Of a DNA stretch of 64,000 bases, positions 3,233 to 19,815 are shown piece by piece. Under the pieces are notes generated by a model, which was not told the DNA's origin, searched no databases, and saw only the letters and a program-made list of their open reading frames with translations. Source of the DNA: Spartobacteria bacterium LR76 (GTDB lineage Bacteria; Verrucomicrobiota; Verrucomicrobiia; Chthoniobacterales; Terrimicrobiaceae); contig QAYZ01000010.1 in the NCBI GenBank assembly GCA_003054655.1, positions 62,001 through 126,000 of the forward strand, written 5' to 3'. Numbering within the stretch: the stretch's first letter is position 1; each line of letters starts with the position of its first letter. The position numbers were made by a program, and so were the translations under genes.

Positions 3233-4265
3233 CAGGCGGGACGGTGTCGCCGTCGATCCAGCGGCCTGCGATGAGGGTGACCTTGGGGTGGGCGGGGAGG
3301 CCGAATTCGTTGCAGAAGATCTTGCCCGCCACGAGCTCGACGAGGGTCGCGCCGAGCAGGTCGGAGTCTTCCACCACGCCGCTGTAGGGCTCGCCGGGCA
3401 CGGAGGCGAGGCAGGCCACGGCGAGATCCTGCGGGATGCGCAGCCCCATGCGGCGAAACCAGATCATCTCATGCCCGGCGGGGCAGATGATGGCCTCGGG
3501 CCGCCATTTTTCGTACCACTTTTTAAACCTCGCGTAGGGTGCCTCGTCGGGATTGCCTGCCATGAGCGGGATGGCGGCGGCGGAGGGGTGGAGATGCTGG
3601 CGGCCGAGGTAGGCGTGGAGCCAGTAGCTGTTGCCTCCCGAGGCGGCGGCCTGCGGCAGGCACATGCCGATGCGGCGATAGCCCCGGCGGTGGAGTTCGT
3701 CCCAGACGATCTCGACATTGCGGAGGTGGTGATTGGCCACCACGTCGACCTTGGCCTGCTGCCAGGAAAAGCCATTGGCGACGCAGGCAAAGCGGGACCA
3801 GTCAAAACACGGCGTCTCGTCCCGGAGGCGGCGCGGCGCGGCGAGGATCATGCCCTCGATGCCGCGGGCGGAGAGGATGCGGTTTACCTTCTGGTCGCTC
3901 ATGCCGGTCTGCCGGAGGTAGAAGCACTCGGCGTGAAACCCGAGCCGTTCCGCGCGGGCGGTCATGCTCTGGTACTGGCGGCGATAGACTTCGTGAACCA
4001 GCCAGTCCTTTTCCGATTCGGCGTCGATGATGATGGCGATGCAGCCCTTGTCCTGGAGCGGCCGGCCGGAGCGGATGTGCTGCATGAGGGCGGAGACATA
4101 GGCATTGGACCGATAGCCAAGGCGCTCGGCCTCCTGCCTCACACGCTCGCGGGTCGCCTCCGGGATGCGCGGATGCCCTCTGAGGGCGAGCGATACAGTG
4201 GTCTGGTTAAGCCCCAAGGCTTCGGCGATGGCGCGTTGGTTGGGCATGGGGAAGGTGTTGGTCAT
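3171..4265 (-). CDS. LacI-family transcriptional regulator
   Basis: A 364-residue regulator. The N-terminal LacI helix-turn-helix is clear (QRAIAEALGLNQTTVSLALRG, then a hinge region PEATRERVRQEAERLGYRSN). A periplasmic-binding-protein-like ligand domain follows from about residue 70. It is divergent from the beta-strand-repeat gene at 4323, which starts a run of same-strand carbohydrate genes, so it probably controls that module in response to a sugar. Starts at 4265 (MTNTF) and 4247 (MPNQR) are both possible. The 3' end overlaps the convergent gene ending at 3232. Confidence 0.88.
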   Translation of the reverse strand: MTNTFPMPNQRAIAEALGLNQTTVSLALRGHPRIPEATRERVRQEAERLGYRSNAYVSALMQHIRSGRPLQDKGCIAIIIDAESEKDWLVHEVYRRQYQSMTARAERLGFHAECFYLRQTGMSDQKVNRILSARGIEGMILAAPRRLRDETPCFDWSRFACVANGFSWQQAKVDVVANHHLRNVEIVWDELHRRGYRRIGMCLPQAAASGGNSYWLHAYLGRQHLHPSAAAIPLMAGNPDEAPYARFKKWYEKWRPEAIICPAGHEMIWFRRMGLRIPQDLAVACLASVPGEPYSGVVEDSDLLGATLVELVAGKIFCNEFGLPAHPKVTLIAGRWIDGDTVPPVNPGRQESPTRSRRFSPQGG

Positions 4266-4275
4266 CGTGATGACC
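4260..4275. promoter_or_regulatory. Palindromic candidate LacI operator
   Basis: GGTCATCGTGATGACC has perfect 7-bp inverted arms around a 2-bp centre and overlaps the start codon of the LacI gene in the divergent intergenic region. Its size fits a LacI-family operator, and its position would allow both autorepression and control of the divergent operon. Confidence 0.5.
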
Positions 4276-4322
4276 GGACAAACAATTGCAAGGGAAAATG
4301 GCGATTTTAGAGTGGTTCCATC

Positions 4323-5921
4323 ATGAAGTCCCCCTATCGGAACTCCCCGTGCCTCGCCGTGATCCTGTGCGCAACCCTGACAACGTTGCTTTTGCCCAAG
4401 GATGCATTTTCCCAAACGACCTACACCTGGAGCGGCGGCGGCGCCGACCAGCTTTGGAGCAATAGCGCAAACTGGTCCGGGGGTACGGCGCCTGCCGGAG
4501 CCTCCGGGTCGACGGATGCCATCGTCCTCGGGCTCACCACGGGAGCCACTGCCCCGGTGGTAGATGCCCACAGCCCGTGGTATCTGCAGACGCTGTCCTT
4601 CCTGTCGGGCGCGGGCAATGTGACGCTCACGGGCAACGACCTGAACTTCACCTCGACCACCGTGGTTTCGACGACCGTGATCAATGCCAATGTCGCAGGG
4701 ACCTTTAGCCATTCCATCGCTAATAATATCACGCTGGCTAACTGGAACGTCATCCGGTCGGGGACGCAGTCGGGCGGCAACCTGACGTTGACGGGAAACA
4801 TCACATCCGGCTCGGGATCGAATACGATCGTGTTTCGCGGCGTGGGCAATGCGTCATCAGTCACGGGCGTGATCGGAGGCTCCAGCACGTCGAAGGTCAA
4901 TGTGCAGAAGTTTGACAGCGGTACGTGGACCTTTTCCAACGCGTCCAACCGCATCGCCAGTTTCATCGCCGGAGGCGGAAAGACCGTCATCGGCGGCAAC
5001 AACGCCCTGGGCGATGGAGTGGTGCTCTCGATCGGAAACACCAGCGGCATCGGGAACATCCAGGTCGACCTCAACGGCTACTCGCAGCGGCTCGGCGGCC
5101 TCACGGGCGTGACGAACGACAACGCGAGCAACCGCGAGATCGTCACCAACTCCTCCGCCACGCTCAGCACGCTGACCTATGAGCGCACGACAGCCACGGG
5201 CAACCAGACTTTCGGCGGGCAGATCACCGGCAACATCGCGCTGGTCAAGCGCGGGTCGAACACGCTCACGCTCACCGCCGATGGCATTCATGCCAACTCG
5301 GGTGAGAATACCTATACGGGATCGACCACCATCGCGGAGGGAACCCTGCTGCTCTCCGGCGGAGCGGTCCTGAGCAATACCTCGGCGATCACAGTGGACT
5401 CGGGAGCGGTCTTCGATGTGAGCCAGACCACGTCGGGCTTCACTGTGAAGGCCACCCAGTCGATCGGCGGTGCGGGCAAGGTGTTGAGCACCTCCAAAAC
5501 CCTCACGCTCAACGGCGCACTCAAGCCATCGGGCACGCTGACCGTGGATGGCGGTGCGTTGGCGCTGGGAAGCTCGGCCACGTTTACCTTCACACTGGGC
5601 ACGACGAGCGACTCGATCCTGCTCACCAACGGGGCGACGCTCGCCCTCGGATCGGGCACCCTTGGGTTCTCGGACTTTGCCTTCACGACGGGCGCGGGCT
5701 TTGCCAGTGGCACATACGTGCTGATCTCGGGCGCGTCCTCGCTGACGGGTTCGCTCGATGCGGCGAATCTCACCGGTTCCCTCGGCAGCTACACGGGGAC
5801 GCTCGCGATCGACGGGAGCAATCTCGTGCTGAACGTCGTGCCCGAGCCCGGCTCGACCGCCCTGGTTGCGCTGGGATCTTTGCTCGTTATTGTGATCCGT
5901 CGGCGTCATTCTGTAGCCTGA
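4323..5921 (+). CDS. Autotransporter-associated beta-strand-repeat protein with PEP-CTERM tail
   Basis: A 532-residue exported protein. A signal peptide (ending near DAFSQ) precedes the typical opening TYTWSGGGADQLWSNSANW. Gly/Thr/Ser-rich strands follow with the family phrases TLTGNDLNF, NTYTGSTTIAEGTLLLSGG and TLTLNGALKPSGTLTVDGG. The end is VPEPGSTALVALGSLLVIVI plus RRRHSVA, a PEP-CTERM sorting tail. Such proteins form long beta-helical surface fibres and are abundant in Verrucomicrobiota. It is the first gene of a same-strand run with short gaps extending to 11861, next to a divergent LacI gene, so it is probably expressed with carbohydrate genes. Confidence 0.88.
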   Translation: MKSPYRNSPCLAVILCATLTTLLLPKDAFSQTTYTWSGGGADQLWSNSANWSGGTAPAGASGSTDAIVLGLTTGATAPVVDAHSPWYLQTLSFLSGAGNVTLTGNDLNFTSTTVVSTTVINANVAGTFSHSIANNITLANWNVIRSGTQSGGNLTLTGNITSGSGSNTIVFRGVGNASSVTGVIGGSSTSKVNVQKFDSGTWTFSNASNRIASFIAGGGKTVIGGNNALGDGVVLSIGNTSGIGNIQVDLNGYSQRLGGLTGVTNDNASNREIVTNSSATLSTLTYERTTATGNQTFGGQITGNIALVKRGSNTLTLTADGIHANSGENTYTGSTTIAEGTLLLSGGAVLSNTSAITVDSGAVFDVSQTTSGFTVKATQSIGGAGKVLSTSKTLTLNGALKPSGTLTVDGGALALGSSATFTFTLGTTSDSILLTNGATLALGSGTLGFSDFAFTTGAGFASGTYVLISGASSLTGSLDAANLTGSLGSYTGTLAIDGSNLVLNVVPEPGSTALVALGSLLVIVIRRRHSVA

Positions 5922-5940
5922 ACCCTCCCCTCCTTCCCCC

Positions 5941-6621
5941 ATGACCACCTGCCGTCAACGCGGCTTTTCCCTGATGGAGACCCTGGTGTGCGTAGCGCTC
6001 ATCGGCGTATTGAGCGCGGTGCTGCTGAGCGCGACCCGGAACATCCAGGGAAAAGGCAACCTCGCCCGCTGTGCCAACAACCTGCGACAGATCGGAGCCG
6101 CGGCCAACCTGTACGCGGGAGAGCACAACGGGCGGTATCCCACACTCCCCGCCACCTCGAGCAACTGGGATGCCTACACCATCTGGAACAACCCGGGCGG
6201 AGCGAAGCAGTGGATGTACTTTGGCAAGCTGGTCGAGGAGGGGTACATCACCGACGGGCGCGTCTTTTATTGCCCGACGGCGCTGCCCGGGACCTTTGAC
6301 TACGCGAGCCAGTGGGGAGCCAGGGTGCAAGGCAATACAGTGAATGGGGGCTTCCGCATCGGCTATCTCCAGCGGGTGGCCGACACCGAGCCGATGCCGG
6401 GCCAGATCATGGCCACCGGGGGGCGCAACCGCATCCTGATGACGGATAACTTTCGTGCTGCCAACTACAGCGGGCATCCGTACGCCACCAAGAACACCAT
6501 CGGCCAGCGCTGGGTGAATGCCCTTTTCTCCGACGGGCATGTGGTCTGCGACAGCTCCGGCAACCGCTGGGCGCACACGCTGACCGGCTCGCTTTACGAC
6601 GAGTGGGAGAGGAATCCCTGA
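5941..6621 (+). CDS. Pseudopilin with prepilin-type N-terminal methylation motif
   Basis: A 226-residue protein. It starts with a short basic leader and the prepilin peptidase site RG/FSLMETL (Glu5 of the mature form present), then a hydrophobic helix, then a soluble domain beginning CANNLRQIGAAANLYAGEHN. The end carries NALFSDGHV, the H-X9-DG-type motif seen in large verrucomicrobial and planctomycetal pseudopilin families. These proteins resemble type II secretion minor pseudopilins, but most genomes encode dozens beside surface or sugar genes, so a specific function is unknown. It lies 19 nt after the beta-strand-repeat gene. Confidence 0.88.
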   Translation: MTTCRQRGFSLMETLVCVALIGVLSAVLLSATRNIQGKGNLARCANNLRQIGAAANLYAGEHNGRYPTLPATSSNWDAYTIWNNPGGAKQWMYFGKLVEEGYITDGRVFYCPTALPGTFDYASQWGARVQGNTVNGGFRIGYLQRVADTEPMPGQIMATGGRNRILMTDNFRAANYSGHPYATKNTIGQRWVNALFSDGHVVCDSSGNRWAHTLTGSLYDEWERNP

Positions 6622-6643
6622 TGCGTCCGGCACGACTTTTACC

Positions 6644-8719
6644 ATGACCCCGTATCATTTCAAACTTTCCGGTCTCCTTTGCGCGCTGGCGCTCACCGTG
6701 CAGGGTTGCTCGCGACCGCCCGAGGCGGAAAAGCCGGGGGAGCTGACCTTTTACAGTCGGGCCGTGCGGGATGCGAAACTGTCGGCGGAGGCGGACCCCG
6801 CCATCCAGAAGCGGCTGGACCGCATCCTGGCCGAGGCGCGCTCGATTCTCGCGCTGCCTCTCGTGCGGCGGGCGGGTTCCCTCGCGGAACTGCGCAGCGC
6901 CCGGGACAACCGAATCGGTTCCATCGACAGCCGCACGGATGTGGTGAGCCAGACCGACCCGGCGAAGGCAGAGATATTCGCGCTCTCCATGGCCGATACG
7001 AACACCGCCGGGCTGGTCGCCCGCGAACTGCCGCTGCTGGCCGCCGCGTATGAGATCACGGGTGACAAGGCGTTCCTCGACCGCGTCGTCAGCCAGCTCA
7101 GGGAGGTCGTTTCCTGGCAGCCCCTGCAGCGTCCCGGCTGGACTCTGTACACGGCGAAGAACTCGCTTCCCGCCGGGGGACGGGATGGAGTGTGGCTCTC
7201 CACCGGCCTCGGCATCGCTGCCATCGTACAGACGCTGCAAGTCCTGCCGGAGGGTGCGCTCCCGCCGGACCTCGTCGCCGCGCTGCGCCGCCAGCTCGCG
7301 ACCGAGATGGACCAGAGCGTGCAGGATTGGAAAGACCGCCTGCCATGGTTCGTGCGATCGGACAAGGTGGTGACGAATCAATGGGTCGTCCCGTCGAGCG
7401 GGATCGTGCTGGCCGCAGCGTATCTCGGCCGGGGCGAGCATGCGGAGGCCTACGATCTCGGGATGAAGAATCTCGAGGCGACTGTCCAGGCATTTGGCAC
7501 CGACGGGTCGTCCTCCGAGGGCGCGATCTATGCCGCGCACTGGACGGCTCCGTTTCTCTTTCTCGCCTCGCGGGCCGCGCAGGATGCGGGCGATGACCGG
7601 CTGGCGCAAAGCCCGTTCCTGAGGAATTTCCCCAACTGGCTGGCGGGAGCCTTTCAGCCGGGCGGCTATGTGGTGAACTGCTTCGACGGATACACGGCGC
7701 TCCGCGGCACGCAGCCGCTGCTGCTCCCCGATATCACGCTGCTCACGGTGCTCAGCCAGTCGCCCGCGCTCATCTGGCTGCTGCAAAATGAGTTTGGCCC
7801 GTCCATGTCGCCGCTGGATCTCTACGGCATCATGGCACTGAGCCTCAATGAGACCTCCGCGGAACCCCCGCCGCTCTACGGTGCCTATGAGCGCGCGGCC
7901 TGGGTGGTGTGGCGCAGCAGTTGGCAGCCGGATGCCTCGGGCGTGTGGATACGCGGCGGGCATCGCACAGACTTTCACGATCACAATGATCGCGGGCACG
8001 TGAACTTTATCGTCAATGGAAAGGCGGTCCTCATCGAGGCGGGAACGCCCACCTACAGCCTGCCCGAGAAGGAGGCGGAGTTTAACTCCGTGCGTGGCCA
8101 CAATGTCCTGCAGGTCGGCGACGAGATCCTCCCGCGCAAGCAGCCAGCGCCCATCACCGTGCACCGATTGGATGCCCAGGGCGGCGATATCACCGTGGAG
8201 GCCGGGGCGGGATACCTCAACGGTTCGTCCAAATGGGTCGACGGCGCGGGAGAGACGCCTCGCGGCTCCCTCAACCCCGTGCGCTGGACGCGCCGGGTGA
8301 CATGGGATTCGCAGCGCATGGAGGTGACGGACCAGGTGATGCTTCCCGAGGCCGAGCGGGTGACCTTCCGCTGGCATCTGGGGTCGGAGCAGCCGCTGGA
8401 GATCGCGGCGGGCGCGGATGCGCTTTCATTCCACGCGACCCTCCCGGCGGGAGTCATGAAATTCCCCGGCTGGATCTCCCGCGAGAACCAGCCCCTGGTC
8501 GAGGGTGTGGACTGGCAGGCTCCGGAGAAGGATATCGTCAATACGCCATCGGCGACATTTGCCATCACAGCGGACCAGCCGGTCGAGGCCCGCCAGGAGA
8601 AGGGGATGGATCACGCCTTCAAGTTCCGTCTCTGGAAACATCAGCACACGACGCTCGTGGTGCAGTCGCGGGAGAAGGTGCAGGCCATCACGATCAGGAC
8701 TGTCATCACAGCTCAATAA
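6644..8719 (+). CDS. Heparinase II/III-family polysaccharide lyase, lipoprotein
   Basis: A 691-residue protein. A lipoprotein signal (ALALTVQGCS) points to an outer-membrane or periplasmic anchor. The N-terminal half is an alpha/alpha toroid-like helical domain. From about residue 435 comes the heparinase II/III beta domain with DFHDHNDRGHVNFIVNGK and VLIEAGTPTY, where the His/Asp cluster matches the conserved metal/substrate region. Lyases of this group cleave uronic-acid polysaccharides by beta-elimination; the actual substrate cannot be read from sequence. The gene is tightly packed between a pseudopilin and an oxidoreductase gene. Confidence 0.82.
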   Translation: MTPYHFKLSGLLCALALTVQGCSRPPEAEKPGELTFYSRAVRDAKLSAEADPAIQKRLDRILAEARSILALPLVRRAGSLAELRSARDNRIGSIDSRTDVVSQTDPAKAEIFALSMADTNTAGLVARELPLLAAAYEITGDKAFLDRVVSQLREVVSWQPLQRPGWTLYTAKNSLPAGGRDGVWLSTGLGIAAIVQTLQVLPEGALPPDLVAALRRQLATEMDQSVQDWKDRLPWFVRSDKVVTNQWVVPSSGIVLAAAYLGRGEHAEAYDLGMKNLEATVQAFGTDGSSSEGAIYAAHWTAPFLFLASRAAQDAGDDRLAQSPFLRNFPNWLAGAFQPGGYVVNCFDGYTALRGTQPLLLPDITLLTVLSQSPALIWLLQNEFGPSMSPLDLYGIMALSLNETSAEPPPLYGAYERAAWVVWRSSWQPDASGVWIRGGHRTDFHDHNDRGHVNFIVNGKAVLIEAGTPTYSLPEKEAEFNSVRGHNVLQVGDEILPRKQPAPITVHRLDAQGGDITVEAGAGYLNGSSKWVDGAGETPRGSLNPVRWTRRVTWDSQRMEVTDQVMLPEAERVTFRWHLGSEQPLEIAAGADALSFHATLPAGVMKFPGWISRENQPLVEGVDWQAPEKDIVNTPSATFAITADQPVEARQEKGMDHAFKFRLWKHQHTTLVVQSREKVQAITIRTVITAQ

Positions 8720-8724
8720 AGAAA

Positions 8725-9732
8725 ATGGACCTAAGAATTGGTGTTATCGGATGCGGCGGCTTTGCGGGTTATGCCCACGGCCCGGCCCTGGCGGCCCTGG
8801 CCAGCCGGGACCGGGGAATCACGCTCGCCGCCTGTTGCGACCTCGACGGGGCGAGGGCCTCGGAGTACAGCCAGGACTTTGGGTTTGCCCGCGCGTACAC
8901 GAATCTCGACGAGATGCTGGACCAGGAAAGCCTCGATGCCGCGCTCGTCCTCGTGGCTCCGCGCCACACGGCCTCGGTCGTCGCGAGGGTCATCCCGCGC
9001 CGGGTGCCGGTCCTGCTGGAGAAGCCACCGGGCCTGACCCTGGGGGAACTCGATCACCTGATCCAACTCGCCGACGAGCACGGCGTGCCGACGCAGGTGG
9101 CCTTCAACCGGCGGTACATGCCGCTGCTGCGCGAGGCGAGGGCGATCCTCGACGGGGATTTTCCGCCCATCATGGAGATTCATTACGAGCTGATCCGCTT
9201 CGACCGGAGGGACCCGGATTTTTCCACCACGGCGATCCATGCCATCGACGCGGTGCGGTTTCTGGCGGGAAGGCCGTTTCAGGTCGCCACCATCCGGTTT
9301 GGCGACTCGGGAGAGGGGAGCGGTTCGGCGGACGCGACGATCTTTATCGAGGGCGAGGATGGTCTGTCGGCCATCATCCAGATCCAGCCGCGGGCGGGTC
9401 TGGTTTCCGAGGGCTTTAGGCTGCATGGCGTGGGTGCTTCGCTGGTCGGGCAGATCGTCGGGCCGGGCGGGGCGCACTCCAGCGGCAGGCTCGAGTATTG
9501 GAGAGACGATGCGTTGAAGTATTCCTATCAGGACGATCAACTGCCGTTTGTGGAAAAGCATGGCATTTACGGGGAACTCGCAGCGTTTTGCGAGGCCGTG
9601 ACGGCGGGAGTGCAGCCGTCTCCGACTCTCGCGGAGTGCAGGCAGCAGGTGGCCCTCATGCAGGCGCTGCGCGAGCGGGTTTCGCGACCGCTCGATCTCC
9701 GCGACCTCGCCGAATCCCTTTGTTCCGCCTAG
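8725..9732 (+). CDS. Gfo/Idh/MocA-family oxidoreductase
   Basis: A 335-residue NAD(P)-dependent oxidoreductase. The Rossmann nucleotide-binding loop is at the N-terminus (IGVIGCGGFAGYAHGPAL), with the family EKPPG motif near residue 97 and a C-terminal alpha/beta substrate domain containing TTAIHAIDAVRF. These enzymes oxidise or epimerise sugars and inositols. The ATG 5 nt after the upstream stop is chosen because the fold begins there. Context after a polysaccharide lyase suggests processing of the released, possibly unsaturated, uronate or sugar. Confidence 0.88.
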   Translation: MDLRIGVIGCGGFAGYAHGPALAALASRDRGITLAACCDLDGARASEYSQDFGFARAYTNLDEMLDQESLDAALVLVAPRHTASVVARVIPRRVPVLLEKPPGLTLGELDHLIQLADEHGVPTQVAFNRRYMPLLREARAILDGDFPPIMEIHYELIRFDRRDPDFSTTAIHAIDAVRFLAGRPFQVATIRFGDSGEGSGSADATIFIEGEDGLSAIIQIQPRAGLVSEGFRLHGVGASLVGQIVGPGGAHSSGRLEYWRDDALKYSYQDDQLPFVEKHGIYGELAAFCEAVTAGVQPSPTLAECRQQVALMQALRERVSRPLDLRDLAESLCSA

Positions 9733-9744
9733 ACTTTACTACTG

Positions 9745-10467
9745 ATGAAACTCCCCCTTTGCATCCTGCTCCCTGCCTGCCTGTGGTCTTTTCCGGTTCA
9801 TGCCGCCGAAAGCATCACGGAGAACTTTGAGTCCGTCACCTCCGGCAGCTCCGCCGCCGCCGCGGGCTGGCAGTTCTTCGCGGGCAAGGGAACGCTCGAC
9901 CAGCTCACCATCACCGAACCCGCGTCGCCGGATAATCACAGCACGCGGTGCCTCACGGGAGCGCCGGATGGCCCGGACATCCAGATTTACAAGGCCTTCC
10001 CCGATTCCTTCGATGCTCGCGATGTCTCCCGGGATATCGACTACTCGGTGAAGATCCTTCCGAGGGCGTCGGGGCAGAAGGTGCCCAGGCTGCTTTTCGG
10101 AATCCGCACGAACGAGGAGAAGCTGGCCTACCTGTTTGGCGTGGAGGGTAATGACTATTCCACGGCAAAGTTTGCCTTTCGCGTCGGGTCCAAGGTTTCC
10201 CAGGACTACTTCCCGGTCGGCCATCTTTATGAAGTGCGCCTGACCATCGGACTCGGGGCCGGGTTGAAGGAGGCTGCGGGCTCGCTGTCGGTCAGGGATC
10301 TCACCGCAGGCCAGTCGGACTGGACGCCGGTGGACGACCTGCAGAACGTACCGCTGGGCCTCACCGAGGCATTCCTTCCCGAGAAGTGGAGCGACTGGCT
10401 GATCCGGGGCGAGTATCGCCGTGAGATCGACGATCTCACGCTCTCGGTGCATACCGGGCAGAATTAA
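9745..10467 (+). CDS. Secreted protein, LamG/concanavalin-like, unknown function
   Basis: A 240-residue protein with signal peptide MKLPLCILLPACLWSFPVHA. It begins ESITENFESVTSGSSAAAAGW, the 'ENFES...GW' opening common in exported jelly-roll domains, and has no catalytic signature I can name. It resembles the 223-residue secreted protein at 15586 in size, signal peptide and place within its module. It may be a carbohydrate-binding accessory protein. Confidence 0.7.
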   Translation: MKLPLCILLPACLWSFPVHAAESITENFESVTSGSSAAAAGWQFFAGKGTLDQLTITEPASPDNHSTRCLTGAPDGPDIQIYKAFPDSFDARDVSRDIDYSVKILPRASGQKVPRLLFGIRTNEEKLAYLFGVEGNDYSTAKFAFRVGSKVSQDYFPVGHLYEVRLTIGLGAGLKEAAGSLSVRDLTAGQSDWTPVDDLQNVPLGLTEAFLPEKWSDWLIRGEYRREIDDLTLSVHTGQN

Positions 10468-10475
10468 TCCCCCCA

Positions 10476-11861: not shown

Positions 11862-11930
11862 GCCTGCGGTCGGTGCGGGAACGACCCGGCAGAGCTAGAT
11901 GAGGAGGGCGGCGCAGGCATTGGGCTGCGC

Positions 11931-13586
11931 TTATCCGTCCTGGCGGAAGGAGTCGACGAACTGGCCGATGCCGCCGCATTCCGGAAGGGCCATGAAGCCG
12001 TGGTCCTTGTACAGTGTGGGGCAAAGGGGCTGGCTCTCCTGCAACTCCCGCCACTCGCGCCAGAGGGCGTCGTACTCGGCGATGAGGGCGGGGATGGCGA
12101 CGGTATTGCCATATCCCTGGCGGATGGCGGCGAGATCGAAGCCGGTGCGGATGATCGTGTAAAGGATGCGGCCATAGTCGCAGGAGACCGTGGCAAACAC
12201 GGCGGTCTCCGGGTCGGGGAAGCGGATCTCGCGCACGAGCCGGGCGATTTCCTGCCAGATGGCGGCGGCCTCGTGCTTCTCGGCCAGGACGCGGGCCACG
12301 GCGGCGGGCGAGTCGGGCAGCGGCGGGGTGCCGAGGAAGTGGTCCCGGCACCACCAGCCCTCGATGTCGGCATGGGTGCCGCGCTTGCCGCGCACGACGG
12401 CGTCGGCGGAGAGCAAGCAGAGCTCGCGGAAGCGGGCGGCATCCTCGCCGGAGAGGCCGAGGCGCTCGCGGGCGTAGCGGGCAAAGACGGCCTCCTCGGA
12501 TTCCCCCGGGGATTGCAGCCACGTGCTGAGGACGTGGGTGTTGAGGTCGATCCAGAGTTCGTTCGCGATGTAGGGGCCCTGCCAGCCGCCGCCGCGGCTC
12601 CAGGTCCAGGCTCCGGCATAGAGCGGGTGGCGGACAAACTCGCGCAGGGAGCGCATCTCCCCCGGCTCCATGATGTGGCGGTACTCCTCAAAGCCCTCGA
12701 TGATGCCGTGGGCCACGTAGTGCGGGTACGCGCCCTTGCCCTCGTATTCACGCTGGCACTGGATCTCGACGATCTGGCGGTGGCGGCCGAGGCCGAGGAA
12801 GCGGCTGAAGCGGTTGCCGCGATGGAAGTCGTCCTCGCAGTGCTTGTCGGAGATGATGAGGTTGCGATGCGGCTCCACGGCGGCGCTGATGAGCTGGTAG
12901 TTTTCGCTCGTGGGCCGGTCAAAGCTCAGCCACGTGCGGAAGAAGACCTCCTTGTCCAGCTCCTCGCACACGACCTCGCGGAGGAGATTCATCAGCGGGA
13001 TGATGGTCTCGCGGGGATTTCCCTTTTCCCGGATATGGCCGACGTGATGCGGGGCGTCGTGCAAGTAGGTCTCGCCGACGCGCACGACGATGCCGTCGAG
13101 ATCGGGGAACTCGCGGAACATCTTGCGCAGTAGGATGGTCAGATAATGCCGCGTGCGTTCGTCGCGCACATCGCCAAAATGCTCCAGCCCCGCGCGCTCC
13201 ACCAGCCCGCGAGGGAAGAGCACCATGTCGCACTGGCAGTAAACCCGCAGCCCGGCCTCGCGCGCCTCGCGGTATTTCCTAAGCAGTTCCTCTCTCTTGC
13301 GCTCCACCCAGGCGGCAGCCTCGCTGCCCTCGGGGAAGATGCCGGGATCGACATCCGACCAGTCCACGGCGAGCTGCGCCGACTCAAAGATCATGAACAC
13401 CCTGCCGCCGTAGCCGAGCGCGGCCAGCGTGGAGGGCGAGGTGTAGGCGGAGACACACTCCGGCTCGCCGGGGTTGTGATGCACCATGTCGAGCAGGTGC
13501 TCCGGCTGCGCGGGCGATGGGAGTGGATGCGCCGGGGCGGCGGCGGGGCGATGAGGGTGGGTTTCGCGAGCGGTGAGGGTGGGCAT
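11931..13586 (-). CDS. Putative glycoside hydrolase (TIM-barrel type)
   Basis: A 551-residue protein with no signal peptide, so probably cytoplasmic. Near the N-terminus is MVHHNPGEP, followed by strand-helix units consistent with a TIM barrel, with acidic and aromatic residues at strand ends (LDGIVVRVGETYL, VEIQCQREYEG, WTWSRGGGW). Overall it resembles alpha-glucuronidase/GH20-like barrels of Verrucomicrobiota, but I cannot place it in a CAZy family. It is divergent from the LacI gene at 13714. The start is uncertain: the frame stays open to 13697, and 13586 precedes the conserved block. Confidence 0.6.
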   Translation of the reverse strand: MPTLTARETHPHRPAAAPAHPLPSPAQPEHLLDMVHHNPGEPECVSAYTSPSTLAALGYGGRVFMIFESAQLAVDWSDVDPGIFPEGSEAAAWVERKREELLRKYREAREAGLRVYCQCDMVLFPRGLVERAGLEHFGDVRDERTRHYLTILLRKMFREFPDLDGIVVRVGETYLHDAPHHVGHIREKGNPRETIIPLMNLLREVVCEELDKEVFFRTWLSFDRPTSENYQLISAAVEPHRNLIISDKHCEDDFHRGNRFSRFLGLGRHRQIVEIQCQREYEGKGAYPHYVAHGIIEGFEEYRHIMEPGEMRSLREFVRHPLYAGAWTWSRGGGWQGPYIANELWIDLNTHVLSTWLQSPGESEEAVFARYARERLGLSGEDAARFRELCLLSADAVVRGKRGTHADIEGWWCRDHFLGTPPLPDSPAAVARVLAEKHEAAAIWQEIARLVREIRFPDPETAVFATVSCDYGRILYTIIRTGFDLAAIRQGYGNTVAIPALIAEYDALWREWRELQESQPLCPTLYKDHGFMALPECGGIGQFVDSFRQDG

Positions 13587-13660
13587 GTTTGGAGGATGGG
13601 TTGCGCAGGGCAGGGAGCGCCTTCCAGCCGGGTGCCGGAAAGAAAGGCAGCCAATTCGCC

Positions 13661-13712
13661 TTGACATCTTTTCATCTATCAGTGAATTATCGTTCACGCA
13701 ATCGTTAATTCA
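13661..13712 (+). promoter_or_regulatory. Promoter and candidate operator of LacI gene
   Basis: A consensus TTGACA (13661-13666) is followed 17-18 bp later by GAATTAT as a -10-like element. Overlapping it, TGAATTA (13683-13689) and its exact complement TAATTCA (13706-13712) form an inverted repeat that also encloses two direct ATCGTT copies (13689-13694 and 13701-13706). The element lies just upstream of the LacI start, in the divergent region, so autoregulation is likely. Confidence 0.5.
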
Positions 13713-13713
13713 A

Positions 13714-14763
13714 ATGCTCGAATCCACCCCCGAGAAGCAAAAGATCACCATTCGCGAAGTCGCCGCCGCCGCAGGCGTCACGATGACGACGGTATCCTCC
13801 GCGCTGCATGCGAGGGGACGGGTGAGCGAGGAGCAGCGGCTCCGGATTCAAAGGATCGCGAGGGAGCTGGGCTATCAGCCCAAGGTGGCGGCCCAGATGC
13901 TGCGGGCGCGCACGACCTCCCAGATCGGGCTCATCCTGCCGATGGATGCCAATACGCACGAGGGGCTGGACGGTCATGCCACGCCGATCCTCCTGAATTT
14001 TGTGCGGGCCTGCGAATCGCGCGGGCTGCGCTATCACGTGGAGTTTTTCAGTCCCAACCAGCCCTTCTCTCCGCCGGTCCAGGTCTCCGGCGGGATGGTC
14101 GACGGCCTGCTGGTCGGGGGCTATGTGGGCAAGCCGCTGGAGGAATGGCTGAACGCCTCCGGGTGCAAGTGGGTCTCCGTGGATGAGCCGGCGGACTACT
14201 GTGTCGTCTCCGCCAGTGATGAAGGCATGTACCGTGCGGTCGAGCGCCTGGCCGCGCTGGGGCATCGCCGCCTCGCCTACACGGGCGGGCCGCTGCACTA
14301 CCATTCGCAGAAAGCGGCCTACGATGGGTTTTTGCGCGCCGTGCGGGACTTTGGCATGGATCTCTCCGGCGAGGGCCGGGTCGTCCACTTCGACGATGTC
14401 TCCCGCCCCAGCCTGCTGCAGAAGGCCTCGGAATGGGCGGCAGAGGTGCTGCGGCAGCCCGCGCCGCCGACAGCGGTGCTCTGCCACGATCTCGTGCATT
14501 CGCGCGGCATCGCCTACCGCGTGATGAAGATGGGTCTGTCCATACCGGAGGATCTCAGCATCATCGCCGTCGGGCCTGCCACCGTGGCGGAGCGCGATCT
14601 GCCCTGCATGAGCACGATCCAGGTGAATTTCCAGAGCCTCGTCGAGAATGCCATGAGCCTGCTGGAGGGCGCCATGCGGGGAAAGAAAAACCTCCGCAAG
14701 GTCGTCCGGGTGACTCCCGAGCTCGTCATGCGCCAGACCGTGGCCCGCCCCCGCCCGGCGTAG
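13714..14763 (+). CDS. LacI-family transcriptional regulator
   Basis: A 349-residue regulator. Its N-terminal DNA-binding domain (ITIREVAAAAGVTMTTVSSA, then RIQRIARELGYQPKVAA) and its ligand-binding core from about residue 60 (QIGLILPMDANT) are standard for the family. The C-terminus ends with VRVTPELVMRQTV. The longer frame from 13573 is rejected because the upstream part is non-protein-like and contains the promoter. It probably controls the divergent putative hydrolase and the downstream run to 19815. Confidence 0.9.
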   Translation: MLESTPEKQKITIREVAAAAGVTMTTVSSALHARGRVSEEQRLRIQRIARELGYQPKVAAQMLRARTTSQIGLILPMDANTHEGLDGHATPILLNFVRACESRGLRYHVEFFSPNQPFSPPVQVSGGMVDGLLVGGYVGKPLEEWLNASGCKWVSVDEPADYCVVSASDEGMYRAVERLAALGHRRLAYTGGPLHYHSQKAAYDGFLRAVRDFGMDLSGEGRVVHFDDVSRPSLLQKASEWAAEVLRQPAPPTAVLCHDLVHSRGIAYRVMKMGLSIPEDLSIIAVGPATVAERDLPCMSTIQVNFQSLVENAMSLLEGAMRGKKNLRKVVRVTPELVMRQTVARPRPA

Positions 14764-14819
14764 CAGGCCGCCCCAGGCTCCCCCTTTCCCAAACACCAAC
14801 CCCACCTCCCGAAACCCCC

Positions 14820-15584
14820 ATGAAAATCATGCAGACCAAAAACGCACTGTTCAGCATCCTTGGTGCCGCCGCCATCGGCTGGGCCGCCCCTCAAACCCAG
14901 GCCGCCGTGGTCATCAGCACCGGGTCCCAGCCGACGACCGATGTGCAGGTGAGCCAGGCCTCCCATGACGTGGGAATCTCGATCGGCTGGCGGTACGATG
15001 TCACCAGCGGCCTCCGCGATGTCGGGCAGTCCTTCCTCGCGACATCGGCCTTCTCGCTTGAGGCGCTCAGCATTTTCGTCAATCAAACTCAAGCGACTAC
15101 GAACGCAGCCCTCCAGAATGCCGTGATGACGCTGACGATTTTCTCGGTGGCGAGCAGCACCTCCTCCGGCACGCAGGGCAACCCGGCCAACGGCACCGTG
15201 GTCTCCACCCAGACCGGCACGTTTGCCTCCGACTTCACCGTCACAGGCAATACAGCCAACAGTTGGATCACCTTTTCCCTGGATACGCCGGTGAGCCTGG
15301 CGGCAGGCGGCTCGTACGTGTGGATGCTCAGCTTTGAGAATCAGGCGGCCAACCGCGTGGTCACGATGGCCTTTCTCAATGGCAACACCTATGCCAATGG
15401 TTTCGCCTGGGTCTCGACCGACGGCTCGACCTACTCGCTGCTCAATGGCGTGAATGCCGATACCACCTTCATCCTGCAAGGCACCGCCGTGCCGGAGCCT
15501 GCCACCGCCACGCTCATGGCCGCCGCCGTGGCGCTCGGCCTCATCTGCCACCGCCGCCGCACCGCGGCCCGCCGTATTGCCTGA
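14820..15584 (+). CDS. PEP-CTERM sorting-domain protein
   Basis: A 254-residue exported protein with a signal peptide ending near PQTQAA. It has a Thr/Ser/Asn-rich single domain (DVGQSFLATSAFSLEALSIF, ITFSLDTPVSLAAGGSYVWM) of the choice-of-anchor/jelly-roll type, and a PEP-CTERM tail VPEPATATLMAAAVALGLIC followed by HRRRTAARR. The domain looks like the 'fibronectin-like, discoidin-like' surface domains found beside sugar enzymes. It is the first gene after the LacI regulator, the same order as in the first module. Confidence 0.82.
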   Translation: MKIMQTKNALFSILGAAAIGWAAPQTQAAVVISTGSQPTTDVQVSQASHDVGISIGWRYDVTSGLRDVGQSFLATSAFSLEALSIFVNQTQATTNAALQNAVMTLTIFSVASSTSSGTQGNPANGTVVSTQTGTFASDFTVTGNTANSWITFSLDTPVSLAAGGSYVWMLSFENQAANRVVTMAFLNGNTYANGFAWVSTDGSTYSLLNGVNADTTFILQGTAVPEPATATLMAAAVALGLICHRRRTAARRIA

Positions 15585-15585
15585 T

Positions 15586-16257
15586 ATGAAACGCTCCCCC
15601 CTCATGGCCTGCCTGGCGCTCGGGCTGGGCTTGCTCGCGCCGAAAGCCGCCCTCGCCGACGGGCAGGCGCTGCTGACCGAGAGTTTTGACTCATCCGAGC
15701 AGGCGGCCATCCGCTGGACGCCCTTGAAATCCAGCCAGCCCTGGCAGGTGGCCGGGGGCGAGGCGGTCCCGGGCGGAGCCGTCATCTTTGACCTGCTGCG
15801 CACGAAGGATTTCACGCCGGTGACGGGTGGGGCCTTTGACCTCACGGTCATGGTGCGGTTTGAGTCGGCCCTGGCCGATGGCAACAACCGCCTCATCCTC
15901 CAGATGCGCGACAGCGCGAACGGCGACGGCTACGAGGTCGTCCTCTCCCAGGGCACTGCCAACAACACCCAGATCGCCGCCATCGCCGGCTCGTCCACGA
16001 GCACCCTCACGAAGGGGCTGATGGCCAAGCCCTTCACCTTCCCGGTCGATGCACTGACGACCATCCGCTGGACCCGCGCGCCCGGAGGCGAGATGAAGGT
16101 CTATATCGACGGGCAGGAGTACCTCAGCGGATTCGACGAAAGGTTCCACCGCTTTGACGTGCTCGCGATCGGCTCGCGAGCCTACGCGCCCCAGGGCGAA
16201 CCCGGTCCCTCGGCGATGCGCCATTTCTTTGGCAGCGTCGAACTCAAAGGCGACTAG
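15586..16257 (+). CDS. Secreted LamG-like protein, unknown function
   Basis: A 223-residue protein starting 1 nt after the previous stop, with signal peptide MKRSPLMACLALGLGLLA. The mature part reads like a concanavalin-type jelly roll: LLTESFDSSEQAAIRWTPL near the start, NNRLILQMRDSANGDGYEV in the middle, EMKVYIDGQEYLSGFDE near the end. It may bind carbohydrate. It is the positional counterpart of the secreted protein at 9745. Confidence 0.72.
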   Translation: MKRSPLMACLALGLGLLAPKAALADGQALLTESFDSSEQAAIRWTPLKSSQPWQVAGGEAVPGGAVIFDLLRTKDFTPVTGGAFDLTVMVRFESALADGNNRLILQMRDSANGDGYEVVLSQGTANNTQIAAIAGSSTSTLTKGLMAKPFTFPVDALTTIRWTRAPGGEMKVYIDGQEYLSGFDERFHRFDVLAIGSRAYAPQGEPGPSAMRHFFGSVELKGD

Positions 16258-16269
16258 CCCCCTCATGCC

Positions 16270-16956
16270 ATGAAGCCACCCCTCCCCAGGACGAGCCGCG
16301 GATTCACCCTCATGGAGCTGCTGACCGCGATCCTCATCATCGGCGTGCTCGTCAGCCTCGCCGCCCCGGCTTTGAACAATGCCATCCGCAAGGCCCGGTC
16401 CGCCGCCTGCCAGTCGAACCTCCGCCAGCTCGGCCTCGCCACCCGGCTTTTCACCCAGGAGAGCAACGGCTACATGCCCGACATCGGCTGGTGGGCGCAG
16501 GAAATACTCCCCTACGCCGGGCCGGAGAAGCCGTATCGCGACATCTTCTGGTGCCCGGCGGCGACGCGGGCGGAGTGTCCCGTCATCGCAGGCCGCACGC
16601 TCTCGGTGTATCGGAACAATCAGCTCATCCCCCTCGGTTACGGGATCAACGCCAACTTCCCCAGCAACAACGGGCAGTACGCGTATGGCAACTACGGCAC
16701 GCGCGTCCCCGAGCGCCGCATGAACAACATCCCCAACCCCTCCAAGGTCGTCCTCTACCTCGACCAGGCGGGCGGATACGCCAATCTCTTTTACAACACC
16801 CAGGATCGTTTTTCGACCCGGCACGCGCCCTCGTCCGACCCGAACAGGATGGGGCTCAATGCGGTCTTTGTGGACGGGCATGTGGAAAGCCTCTCGATGA
16901 CCTACGACACGGCGGCGCGCTCCCCCTGGCGCAGCATGTTTGACGCCACCTGGTAG
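16270..16956 (+). CDS. Pseudopilin with prepilin-type N-terminal methylation motif
   Basis: A 228-residue protein. The prepilin peptidase site SRG/FTLMELL with Glu5 is followed by a hydrophobic helix, then a domain beginning CQSNLRQLGLATRLFTQESN. RHAPSSDPNRMGLNAVFVDG is the H-X9-DG-type C-terminal motif. It is homologous to the pseudopilin at 5941 and holds the corresponding place in the second LacI module. Confidence 0.88.
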   Translation: MKPPLPRTSRGFTLMELLTAILIIGVLVSLAAPALNNAIRKARSAACQSNLRQLGLATRLFTQESNGYMPDIGWWAQEILPYAGPEKPYRDIFWCPAATRAECPVIAGRTLSVYRNNQLIPLGYGINANFPSNNGQYAYGNYGTRVPERRMNNIPNPSKVVLYLDQAGGYANLFYNTQDRFSTRHAPSSDPNRMGLNAVFVDGHVESLSMTYDTAARSPWRSMFDATW

Positions 16957-16971
16957 TCCGCTCCTTCCCTG

Positions 16972-19815
16972 ATGAAATCCCTCCGCCTTTCCTCGATCCT
17001 CCCGGCGTTTCTCGGTTGCCTCCTCGTCGGCTGCGATGGCACGTCGCACCCCGCCTCGCCGATCCCCTCTCCGGCAGCCTCGCCGCAGGCCGCCGCCGTC
17101 ATCCCCGGCCCATGGTTTCATCCTGCGCCGTTTGCCTGGGCGCTCCAGGAGATCACTCCCGAGAGCCGTCTCGCGCCCTCCCAGCCCTGGCGCACCCTGG
17201 TTGCCTCGGGCGAGACCGACCCCATCGCGGTGGACTGGAGCGCACTCAAGCCGCGAGCAGGCTGGCAGCATGCCGTGGCCTCCCTCTCCGCCGGGCCGGG
17301 CGAGCCTTCCTTTTACGAGCAGGACTTTGCGGCCTCCGCGCCAGTGCTCACTCTGCCTGCGCTGCCCTCGGGCGGGTATTGGCTGAAAGTGAGTTTCGCA
17401 GGCGACGGCTGGGCCGCGGGAAAGAGCTGCTTCCTCAATATCCTCGAGTCCTCTGTCGCCGATCTCCCCCGGCGTCAACTGCCCGGCCCGCTGCTCCGGG
17501 TTCGCACGGCGGAGGGAGCCGTCGTCGTCTCCGGCGCGCCGCCCGCCGCCCTCCTGCGCGTGATCGTCTCGGAGCTGAATGGCCGCCGTATCGCCGCTTT
17601 TGAAGCACCCGCGCAGCGGAATGCCGGGGAGCAGGTCATACCGATTCCCCAGGCCGGGCCGGGAAAGACCGTCGACGTGGCCGTGCTGGCGGACGAGGGC
17701 GGGCGCATCACCGGGCGCGACAGCGTCTGGCTGACTGTTCCCGGGGATTCCTCCGCCCCGCCGACCTGGCCAGCACCGGCGGGTCCGGCTCCCTCCATCT
17801 TTGACTATCCCTCCGGGGAGACCGTCTCCAGCCAGGGGGTCTTCGCCGAGCAGCGCGCCGGGCTGGATCTCCAGGTGGCGGGCATGGCGGCCCGGGGAAG
17901 CAAGGCGATCCAGCTCTGGATCACCTGGGGCGCGATCGAGCCTGTGCTCGGCTCCCGCGACTGGAGCAACCTCGACGCCTACGTGAACTACCTCACCGAG
18001 CGCAACATCCCGTTCACGCTCGCGGCGGCGGGCAGCGTCCTCTTTGGCAACGGCCCTACCGCGATGTGGGGAGACTGGGCGATGAACCACGAGGGCCGCT
18101 ACAAAATCTGGCGCGACCAGCCGGTCGTGAGTCCGTCCTCCGCCGCCTATCGCCAGGCTGCCGCGGAGTTCACCCGCGCGCTCATCCAGCGCTATCGCGG
18201 CAACCCCTGCCTCGCCGGGTATGTCTTTCTCAATCAGGGCACGGATAGCGGCATCTTCCAGGAGCACTATGACTCCATCCTCGACTATTCCGCAGCGGCG
18301 CGCAGCGACTTCCGCGCGTTCCTGCAACGCCGCTACCCCTCGCTCGACGCCCTCAATGCCGCCTGGAGCACCACCTGGCCCTCATGGGAGGCCACCCAGC
18401 CGCCGCTCCCCCAGCTCGACCGCGAGGTCAACCTCTCCCCCGCCTGGCGGGACTGGACAGCCTGGAAGCTCGAGACCTATCGCCAGTGCTCGGTCGATCT
18501 CTTCGATCCAGTCGTCGCCGCGCTCGATCCCTCGCGGCCCGTCCTCCACTACAACGCAAAGACCGGCCCGTTTGAGTACAACTTTCACGACCTGAAGGTC
18601 CCCCACTGGGGCACCGCCGACGGCGCGGGCGAGGACTACCGCATGGCGCGCATCAACAGCATCACGAAAAACTGGAACCTCTGGCGGCAGACCGAGTCCC
18701 ACGACGTCCCGCCCGCCAACCTGCGCTACCTCTCCGACATGTGGGCGGAATCCCTCCGCAACGGCGGCAAGGACATCCGGTACAACCTCGTCTTCAACTC
18801 CATGGCGTCGAGCTTTGCCACCGCCTACCCAAAGAACGCGAAGCTCCAGGACGCCCTCGCCTGGTGGTCCCGCACGGCTCCGCTCCGCGCCGCCCTCACC
18901 GCGAGCACCACGACCCCGCCGCGCCTCGGCGTCTTTCTCTCCTGGGCCGACATGCTCTATCGCATCCGCGTCTTTCGCTGGTACACCATCCCCGGCAATC
19001 GCGCCGAGGAGCTGGTCCGCCATGAGGACTTTCTCCCCGTGACCTGGCTCTCCGAATGGACGCCGGAAAGCGCCTGGAAAGACGTGTCCGTGCTCCTCGT
19101 GCCCGAGGATGCCCGCGTCTGGAGCGCAGGCCTCGCCGAGCGCCTGGGCAAATACGTCAGCGAGGGCGGAACCCTCGTCCTCTGGGGCAGGAGCGGGCAA
19201 TACGACGCCGGTAACGACTCCTCCGCGCCACTCCCCTGGGCCGGGGCGCTCGGCCTCAGCGGGCTGCAAGCCCAGCCCGCCGCCCCCGGACCGGGAGGCT
19301 CGGAATCCCGGGTGGAACTTGGCGAGACGCGCGCGCTTTGCTCGCCCGCCGTGGAGGTGGCATCCGTCCCGCCCGGAGTCGAGCAGACTGTGGATGCGCG
19401 TGGCCGTCCCGCCGTCCTCTCCTGGGCGCATGGCCAGGGGCGCGTGTACTGGTGCCTGTCGGAGACGCCCGGGGAATCCGACCGCCTCGTGGCCCGGCTC
19501 CTCCAGGACGCAGGCGCTCCCCGCGAGACGCTCAGCTCCAACCCGCAGGTCGACGCCTTCAGCGTTTACCGCGACGGCGTGCGCTACGTGATCGTCAACC
19601 GCTTCCTCGGCTACGGGGCCAAGGCCGACGACATCCCGGTCACCACCCGCATTCGCGTGCCGGGGCTGCCCGCAGGCGACTGGACCATCGAGGCCCTGGT
19701 CCCTGAGGATCAGCCAAGACAAATGACCGCCGGGGAGCTGGCCGCCACCGGCTGGGAGGCCAGCCTCCTGCCCTCCGCCCTGCAAGTCTACGCCCTGCGC
19801 CCCGCCCGGGACTAA
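16972..19815 (+). CDS. GH42-like beta-galactosidase-type lipoprotein
   Basis: A 947-residue protein with lipobox FLGCLLVGC, so membrane-anchored outside the cytoplasm. An N-terminal beta domain (to about residue 280) precedes a TIM barrel whose opening resembles GH42 (GMAARGSKAIQLWITWGAIE, DWSNLDAYVNYLTERNIPF, then SDFRAFLQRRYPSLDALNAA). A trimerisation-like domain follows (LLVPEDARVWSAGLAERLGK, EGGTLVLWGRSGQYD). In GH42 the acid/base sits in an N-E pair; the aligned stretch here is LNQGTDSG, so the acid/base may be altered and activity should not be assumed. Confidence 0.72.
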   Translation: MKSLRLSSILPAFLGCLLVGCDGTSHPASPIPSPAASPQAAAVIPGPWFHPAPFAWALQEITPESRLAPSQPWRTLVASGETDPIAVDWSALKPRAGWQHAVASLSAGPGEPSFYEQDFAASAPVLTLPALPSGGYWLKVSFAGDGWAAGKSCFLNILESSVADLPRRQLPGPLLRVRTAEGAVVVSGAPPAALLRVIVSELNGRRIAAFEAPAQRNAGEQVIPIPQAGPGKTVDVAVLADEGGRITGRDSVWLTVPGDSSAPPTWPAPAGPAPSIFDYPSGETVSSQGVFAEQRAGLDLQVAGMAARGSKAIQLWITWGAIEPVLGSRDWSNLDAYVNYLTERNIPFTLAAAGSVLFGNGPTAMWGDWAMNHEGRYKIWRDQPVVSPSSAAYRQAAAEFTRALIQRYRGNPCLAGYVFLNQGTDSGIFQEHYDSILDYSAAARSDFRAFLQRRYPSLDALNAAWSTTWPSWEATQPPLPQLDREVNLSPAWRDWTAWKLETYRQCSVDLFDPVVAALDPSRPVLHYNAKTGPFEYNFHDLKVPHWGTADGAGEDYRMARINSITKNWNLWRQTESHDVPPANLRYLSDMWAESLRNGGKDIRYNLVFNSMASSFATAYPKNAKLQDALAWWSRTAPLRAALTASTTTPPRLGVFLSWADMLYRIRVFRWYTIPGNRAEELVRHEDFLPVTWLSEWTPESAWKDVSVLLVPEDARVWSAGLAERLGKYVSEGGTLVLWGRSGQYDAGNDSSAPLPWAGALGLSGLQAQPAAPGPGGSESRVELGETRALCSPAVEVASVPPGVEQTVDARGRPAVLSWAHGQGRVYWCLSETPGESDRLVARLLQDAGAPRETLSSNPQVDAFSVYRDGVRYVIVNRFLGYGAKADDIPVTTRIRVPGLPAGDWTIEALVPEDQPRQMTAGELAATGWEASLLPSALQVYALRPARD

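Follow-up and report, generated by a model that had tools for sequence, protein, structure and literature searches.

LacI-type regulators beside solo pilins, PEP-CTERM proteins and predicted polysaccharide enzymes in the genome of Spartobacteria bacterium LR76

Polysaccharide utilization loci of the SusC/SusD type in Bacteroidota are regulated clusters that combine surface binding proteins with enzymes and occur many times per genome. Many complex polysaccharides are degraded by Verrucomicrobiota, and we know of no assigned role for the divergent pilins that are numerous in their genomes. In aquatic Akkermansiaceae, substrate acquisition is largely understudied, and the locus MUL2 links a type-IV-pilus-like system to the attachment and uptake of glycans (PMC13174399). 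In Verruconatronum alginivorum, according to the excerpts of the report considered here, the cluster pgaptmp_000046-60—lyases and a pulG-like pseudopilin (000050)—appeared up-regulated on alginate, with one proteome per treatment; another pseudopilin, encoded outside the clusters, was over-expressed too, and the genome encodes 67 homologous proteins (PMC13274419). Excerpts on planctomycetes describe dextran on pili-like fibres (PMC5394234) and a fishing-rod hypothesis (PMC12078418), and an excerpt on Akkermansia lists 23 predicted PEP-CTERM proteins (PMC4960237). The stretch analysed here, hereafter the window, consists of 64,000 nucleotides of Spartobacteria bacterium LR76 (positions 62,001 to 126,000 of contig QAYZ01000010.1) and contains two adjacent modules, A and B, each with a LacI-family regulator, a PEP-CTERM protein, a type IV pilin-like protein and a predicted polysaccharide enzyme. 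Genome-wide, LacI genes lie near pilins of this kind far more often than expected.

Linkage of LacI genes and solo pilins

The assembly searched comprises 4.75 Mb in 16 contigs, with the 64-kb window at C16:62001–126000. Genes were called and the proteins scanned by hmmscan against Pfam and NCBIfam, which covered 17 window proteins; the genome yields 96 matches to the prepilin motif, 50 to LacI and 96 to PEP-CTERM (92 above cut-off). Pilin classes and gene maps span 1.12 Mb around pilins and LacI genes. In these loci, a regular expression for the prepilin motif is more sensitive than Pfam, recovering 91 of the 96 Pfam matches and 26 further sites. The pilins were split by sequence clustering into solo pilins and pilins of multi-gene cassettes of the Verru_Chthon type. 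Linkage was judged against a null in which feature positions are shifted around the genome 1000 or 2000 times; in the test of the two classes, four motifs of no assigned class were entered as solo.

A pilin of any class is found within 5 kb of 26 of the 50 LacI genes against 8.0 expected, a count reached in none of 1000 shifts. This linkage is carried by the solo pilins: 22 of the 50 LacI genes have one within 5 kb (5.7 expected), and 15 of the 50 lie near both a solo pilin and a PEP-CTERM gene (2.8 expected), each count being reached in none of 2000 shifts. Cassette pilins lie near four LacI genes against 2.15 expected, with 354 of 2000 shifts reaching four, and serve as an internal negative control because their linkage does not exceed chance. 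The first-pass annotation had noticed the association of LacI, PEP-CTERM protein, pilin and enzyme at the two window modules; the count finds it across the genome, and the earlier observation is mostly right and larger in extent than first seen.

Pairing each solo pilin with one LacI gene within 7 kb, with 48 called LacI genes considered, gives 23 modules: 15 divergent, six with the LacI gene upstream on the same strand and two with another arrangement. The co-directional run of the pilin includes a PEP-CTERM gene in 15 modules (13 by Pfam, two by regular expression only). In at least 16 of the 23, this run features a carbohydrate-active or LamG domain or a member of the beta-helix cluster—a count that takes in the window modules and the beta-helix cluster and scores unscanned genes as misses. 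Many of the 30 further module proteins scanned are carbohydrate-active, with the families right-handed beta-helix, GH71, DUF5696, GH39 with CBM9, GHL6, GH2, GH5, GH13, heparinase II/III, PcRGLX, CBM11 and GH42; others are MFS or Gfo/Idh proteins. The next gene is on the same strand within 250 bp for 35 of 61 solo pilins. Among 25 of 69 families listed for these next genes are Beta_helix (five), LamG (three), heparinase II/III (two) and BNR_2 (two), together with the unrelated UvrA-like, ABC and TPP-enzyme families. The former four are all missing from the 25 of 70 families listed for a control set of 35 genes; the control genes are on the whole shorter than the genes tested after solo pilins.

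In other genera of the family, a pilin lies within 5 kb at ten of 36 LacI loci (the best-scoring of those listed) against about 3.1 expected or, more fairly, nearer 3.8, because the lower figure uses Pfam totals while the regular expression detects more sites. Several LacI genes of this sample lie near contig ends, and it leaves out four LacI genes of genome G014 and the listed LacI of G016, with two pilins in total. Pilins matching the profile used here occur in 280 of 288 Verrucomicrobiota genomes, a count that takes in the own genome and scored up to ten candidates per genome; the hits may include some ordinary pilus subunits. For the top pilin hits of 40 selected, nonrandom genomes, a LacI gene lies within 5 kb at nine of 40 against 2.3 expected. 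Two genomes, G144 (another family of the same class) and G202 (outside the class), were selected for their few contigs. In G144, 19 of 54 LacI genes lie near a pilin against 4.3 expected, and six LacI–pilin pairs within 500 bp, tight and divergent, compare with 0.5 expected (none of 1000 shifts in either case); this takes in 54 of its 55 LacI genes, one on a second small contig being omitted and one sub-cut-off LacI retained. Heparinase II/III occurs in five of six nearby G144 proteins scanned, the loci having been picked for LacI–pilin adjacency. PEP-CTERM signals are found there by regular expression in three of nine loci and by TIGR02595 in one of five proteins scanned, and others resemble PEP-CTERM by eye; the full triad of LacI, pilin and PEP-CTERM is not claimed for this genome. 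Outside the class, a locus picked for adjacency (L187) has LacI, pilin and a GH42-like gene consecutively. Of four adjacency-picked LacI–pilin loci outside the class, one has a GH42 match above cut-off in the next enzyme-size gene, two have sub-cut-off matches there (GH5 and CBM_4_9) and the fourth has none. The linkage hence recurs in another family of the class, is weaker elsewhere and is absent in G202, so that the linkage across Verrucomicrobiota on which the earlier proposal had been staked holds for the own genome and part of the phylum.

The two modules of the window

Module A (3171–11861) features the LacI-family regulator on the minus strand (3171–4265; PF13377 49.2 bits, cut-off 26.5; PF00356 28 bits, cut-off 27) and six genes on the plus strand. 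The PEP-CTERM protein (4323–5921) carries a beta-strand (PATR) repeat (PF12951, 30.6 bits) and matches TIGR02595 with 17.1 bits (cut-off 16); for PF07589 (cut-off 20.7), hmmscan gives 20.2, just under, and the genome search 25.8, over. It is followed by the solo pilin, which is type IV pilin-like (5941–6621; PF07963 28.0 bits, cut-off 21.2; TIGR02532 25.5, cut-off 16.3), and by a heparinase II/III-like enzyme with a lipobox-like start (6644–8719; PF07940 50.4 bits, cut-off 24), for which heparinases in the PDB match down to 3e-7. The remaining genes encode a Gfo/Idh/MocA oxidoreductase (8725–9732; PF01408 70.3 bits), a small protein of no known family with a signal-peptide-like start (9745–10467) and a permease resembling MFS sugar transporters (10476–11861; PF07690 82.2 bits, PF13347 50.8 bits). 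A perfect 7-2-7 inverted repeat, GGTCATC-GT-GATGACC, lies at 4260–4275, at the start of the LacI gene; it is a possible operator, too weak to claim, and module B has none as strong. No promoter-like site was found in 3900–12000.

Module B (11931–19815) begins with a minus-strand gene divergent from its LacI gene (11931–13586), whose product has no Pfam and no credible PDB match. A sigma-70-like candidate promoter, TTGACA-18-AATTAT, lies at 13661–13690 on the plus strand—a consensus match, which is not proof of function. The LacI-family regulator (13714–14763; PF00356 54.3 bits, PF13377 80.3 bits) heads a co-directional plus-strand run and is probably the first gene of a single operon. The run continues with the PEP-CTERM protein (14820–15584), with a predicted jelly-roll-like beta-sandwich in an AlphaFold2 (AF2) model; PF07589 gives 23.5 in the genome search, over the cut-off, and 19.1 in hmmscan, under it, and TIGR02595 is not among the matches listed. 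A weakly matching LamG-like protein (15586–16257; PF13385 19.4 bits, cut-off 27.6), the type IV pilin-like solo pilin (16270–16956; PF07963 27.5 bits, cut-off 21.2; TIGR02532 27.1, cut-off 16.3) and a GH42-like glycoside hydrolase with a lipobox-like start (16972–19815; PF02449 55.3 bits, cut-off 21) complete it, the last matching GH42 beta-galactosidases in the PDB down to 7e-7. Both regulators combine the helix-turn-helix domain PF00356 with the periplasmic-binding-like sensor PF13377 above cut-off and lie beside sugar genes. The substrates of the two enzymes are assigned to family level only.

Gene calls and Pfam/NCBIfam matches bear out the first-pass reading of both modules as LacI, PEP-CTERM protein, pilin-like protein and predicted polysaccharide enzyme. 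A LamG-like protein, also proposed for both, is retained as a weak match in module B; for the small protein of module A, the label was rejected, since Pfam gives nothing for it up to E = 1, it bears no similarity to the LamG-like protein of module B and the PDB search returned no credible relative. The pilins had been called H-X9-DG pseudopilins. Both carry the N-terminal prepilin cleavage/methylation motif and align within one wider pilin group; the strict label was rejected on motif spacing and TIGR04294 scores. In the alignment, pilin A has no H ahead of its DG, and the H–DG spacing of pilin B is longer. TIGR04294 (cut-off 19) gives 15.8 bits for pilin B and is not among the matches listed for pilin A, while two pilins of sister modules satisfy it (21.3 and 25.0); the H-X9-DG/DUF1559 family PF07596 stays under its cut-off of 23.3 in pilin A (13.3) and pilin B (16.6). 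Neither pilin is a Verru_Chthon member by TIGR02596 (cut-off 70 bits), with 14.6 for A and 22.3 for B.

About nineteen Verru_Chthon-type pilin cassettes, in two gene orders (e.g. L055:10198–16080 and L050:4259–9720), occur in the examined 1.12 Mb of the genome. Two were tested by NCBIfam: one has proteins D and A above cut-off and B and C just below, the other has no protein above it. In the latter, weak matches link the 1200-aa product of the last gene to GspK at its N-terminus and the other products to GspH, XpsI and GspJ; such cassettes may encode minor-pseudopilin (H-I-J-K) tip complexes with a giant K.

The AF2 model of pilin B (predicted local distance difference test, pLDDT, 73.8) features a helix at 14–64. 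In VIA-align, 11 of 13 rows are type IV pilins, with PilA4 on top (Z 5.6, root-mean-square deviation, rmsd, 3.7, 117 aligned residues), and Foldseek returns no match under E 0.74. No carbohydrate-binding fold above chance is listed for this model, which excludes no reading. Two cysteines are both present in 24 of 28 pilins, both absent in three and reduced to one in one; this co-occurrence suggests a disulphide in the pilin head. The AF2 model of the PEP-CTERM family, built from 13 sequences (pLDDT 67.3), is a beta-sandwich. It matches baseplate and fibre proteins of phages with Z up to 15.2 (rmsd 2.9, 154 aligned residues); Z is 11.4 for Cwp84 structures, in which a lectin-like domain is present, and 9.0 for carbohydrate esterases, or 7.2 for the CBM domain of one esterase by itself. 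Neither model demonstrates polymer binding.

Modules A and B were considered as one duplicated unit, and this was rejected: their identities (LacI 19%, pilin 26%) are like those of other module pairs (median 23% for both), and across the 23 modules the distances between pilins do not rise with those between LacI proteins (r −0.17, reached in 4845 of 5000 permutations). The association thus seems to have arisen or been retained many times, or to be of great age, and not to stem from recent copying as a block. Module A and the module of a fused gene on contig C10 resemble each other (LacI 44%, Gfo 46%, part of the PEP-CTERM protein 34%). Module B is kept in a near relative, the metagenome-assembled genome Verrucomicrobia bacterium SCN18_30_10_14_R3_B_61_17 (locus L095), with identities of 87% for the 11931–13586 protein, 96% for LacI, 80% for the PEP-CTERM protein, 77% over 197 of 223 aa for the LamG-like protein, 93% for the pilin and 89% for the GH42-like enzyme. 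The predicted promoter sits in a stretch almost identical in that locus, while the spacer between the LacI and PEP-CTERM genes has diverged. In the 5 kb beside module B there, no module A gene was found save for a cross-match of pilin A to pilin B; module B thus looks like a unit and its adjacency to A incidental.

Elsewhere in the window, a unit of about 141 bp is repeated in tandem at 58889–59706 (5.8 copies with 74% matches), and 54094–54193 carries short GTGACATCAGC-like tandem repeats with periods of 11, 22 and 33 bp. A protein with SLFN_AlbA_2 and HATPase_c_4 is encoded at 23938–25347, in a stretch with a lower G+C content of 0.553 against 0.606 and 0.628 in the adjoining bins.

Shared machinery, fused genes and competing explanations

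The genome contains one exosortase (PF09721; C10:566938–567723, E 1.1e-44), five secretins and eight T2SSE-type ATPase matches; the search was limited to these three groups. The 14 matches come no closer than 66 kb to the 23 modules. That each module builds a dedicated surface structure, as first proposed, accordingly finds no support in that form. Because the machinery is both distant and scarce (14 matches against 96 prepilin and 96 PEP-CTERM matches), the modules probably supply subunits for shared machinery, not whole structures.

The most unusual observation is the joining of PEP-CTERM and pilin genes. Ten PEP-CTERM ends lie on the same strand up to 170 bp upstream of a pilin motif, and in three of these the frame is continuous without a stop. 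The first join (C10:458528–461086, 852 aa, 196 bp from a LacI gene) consists of a beta-strand PEP-CTERM part and then a full pilin, the second (C13:152451–153977) has 508 aa, and the third is a 443-aa frame in C15 ahead of a cassette-D-type pilin; in locus coordinates, they lie at L049:5383–7938 (minus strand), around 5926 in L025 (plus) and around 4735 in L092 (minus). By regular expression, none was seen in the loci examined from other genomes. A PEP-CTERM helix ends in a basic cytoplasmic tail, and a prepilin leader requires basic residues at this place; the topology of a join would fit, with the tail coinciding with the leader. Chance is an unlikely source of three cases; the continuous frames may reflect errors of assembly or, for the C13 join, an internal start.

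The best overall explanation, which we rate at about even, is that of LacI-controlled polysaccharide loci feeding substrate-specific subunits to shared machinery. It starts from what is observed—gene content, linkage, its recurrence, the distance of the machinery and the in-frame joins. That each module is a regulated polysaccharide module is very probable, and polymer capture as the role of the pilin is an evenly balanced proposal. An oligosaccharide of the target polymer would bind LacI and allow expression of the locus, which would yield an exported lyase or glycosidase, a PEP-CTERM surface protein of jelly-roll-like or beta-strand type and one pilin. The pilin would be cleaved by a shared prepilin peptidase and join a shared type IV pilus or type II secretion pseudopilus, and the single exosortase would sort the PEP-CTERM protein. 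These substrate-specific subunits would then hold the polymer at the envelope close to its own enzyme, and smaller products would be taken in, in some modules via the MFS transporter of the locus. If solo pilins are such parts of LacI-controlled loci, each run of LacI, pilin and enzyme is a testable unit pointing to its own polymer, and the joins are a direct handle on whether both sorting systems serve one complex. More tentatively, and to our mind doubtful, each LacI locus could supply two functionally paired proteins, a substrate-specific pilin and a lectin-like protein sorted by the exosortase, which would sometimes be made as one precursor: the basic PEP-CTERM tail would double as the prepilin leader (RRFRRMA then FTLPE), the prepilin peptidase would split the two, and the cell would swap fishing subunits on a shared fibre per polymer.

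Several observations weigh against the explanation by substrate-specific subunits. In eight of the 23 modules, the run of the pilin lacks a PEP-CTERM gene, and eight of the 30 further module proteins have no Pfam match at E ≤ 0.01. No pilin lies within 5 kb at 26 of the 36 sister-genus LacI loci (the best-scoring of those listed) and no LacI gene within 5 kb of 31 of the 40 top pilin hits of the phylum sample; in G202, two of 23 LacI genes lie near a pilin against 2.1 expected. The model of pilin B resembles type IV pilins at a middling level only, as judged by its best Z of 5.6, and its lectin-domain rows in Foldseek are at chance level (E ≥ 5.7). The shift null takes no account of sugar-gene clustering or functional islands, and part of the linkage may therefore reflect shared location. 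Taken further, the numerous pilins, PEP-CTERM proteins and LacI regulators would merely cohabit sugar-gene regions without acting together, for which the high genome-wide numbers of all three, the lack of correlation between LacI and pilin distances, the unrelated families among the genes after solo pilins and the lack of linkage in G202 can be cited. This is improbable in view of the cassette pilins, which are unlinked in the same genome, the tight divergent pairs in G144, the in-frame joins and the conservation of the module B run in L095.

A pilin acting as cargo adaptor, i.e. a module-specific pseudopilin that helps its own enzyme to the surface through the type II secretion system (T2SS) and binds no polysaccharide, is possible rather than probable. 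The enzyme directly downstream of the pilin (22 bp in A, 15 bp in B), the lipobox-like start of both enzymes—as judged by a regular expression—and the five secretins would suit it, and the pullulanase T2SS reportedly secretes a surface lipoprotein. Yet one pseudopilin set normally serves many T2SS cargos, the pilin of some modules neighbours LacI instead of directly preceding an identified enzyme, and the PEP-CTERM linkage and the joins are left unexplained. The V. alginivorum excerpts lend the cargo adaptor further support, their authors suggesting that T2SS may export alginate lyases (PMC13274419). Very improbable is the building of a surface polysaccharide or coat with PEP-CTERM proteins and pilins as envelope parts: PEP-CTERM sorting is described as exopolysaccharide-associated in the excerpt considered (PMC1569441), but the modules encode members of lyase and hydrolase families as well as MFS permeases and Gfo/Idh oxidoreductases, and the scan of 17 window proteins and 30 others from the modules found no glycosyltransferase family.

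Comparison with described systems

In the open-licence literature, no description of LacI–PEP-CTERM–pilin modules or of PEP-CTERM/pilin fusions was found, which is no proof of absence; the first-pass judgement of a poorly described type of locus is fair, yet related cases are published (PMC13274419, PMC13174399, PMC12078418). The Verru_Chthon cassettes (TIGR02596 and TIGR02598–TIGR02600) resemble the solo pilins as expanded pilin-like proteins of the same genome and differ in being multi-gene and in a LacI linkage not beyond chance; the window pilins score far under TIGR02596. With SusC/SusD loci, the modules share regulation, surface binding proteins, enzymes and the occurrence of many loci per genome, but no SusC/SusD or TonB receptor Pfam match is found in the 13 genes of modules A and B; the pilin and the PEP-CTERM protein may stand in their place.

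The planctomycete fibres share the idea that pilin-like proteins fish polysaccharide into the periplasm; in the passages of these sources considered, no gene-level tie to LacI, PEP-CTERM or enzyme operons is made. The alginate cluster of V. alginivorum combines polysaccharide lyases with a pseudopilin in Verrucomicrobiota, like the modules here. Unlike them, it comes without LacI or PEP-CTERM in the main text of that report, which suggests export by T2SS and, in the parts considered, reports no genome-wide pilin linkage (PMC13274419). MUL2 likewise unites pilus-like parts with glycan acquisition in Verrucomicrobiota, as proposed here, but is one locus with PilM-like MUL2B and pilin-like MUL2A; no PilM-like Pfam match occurs in the 13 genes of modules A and B, and about twenty loci here each have a pilin and a regulator, mostly with a carbohydrate-active gene. 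A pseudopilin on alginate, MUL2 and planctomycete fibres were thus known before, and the modules described here are a variation on that theme.

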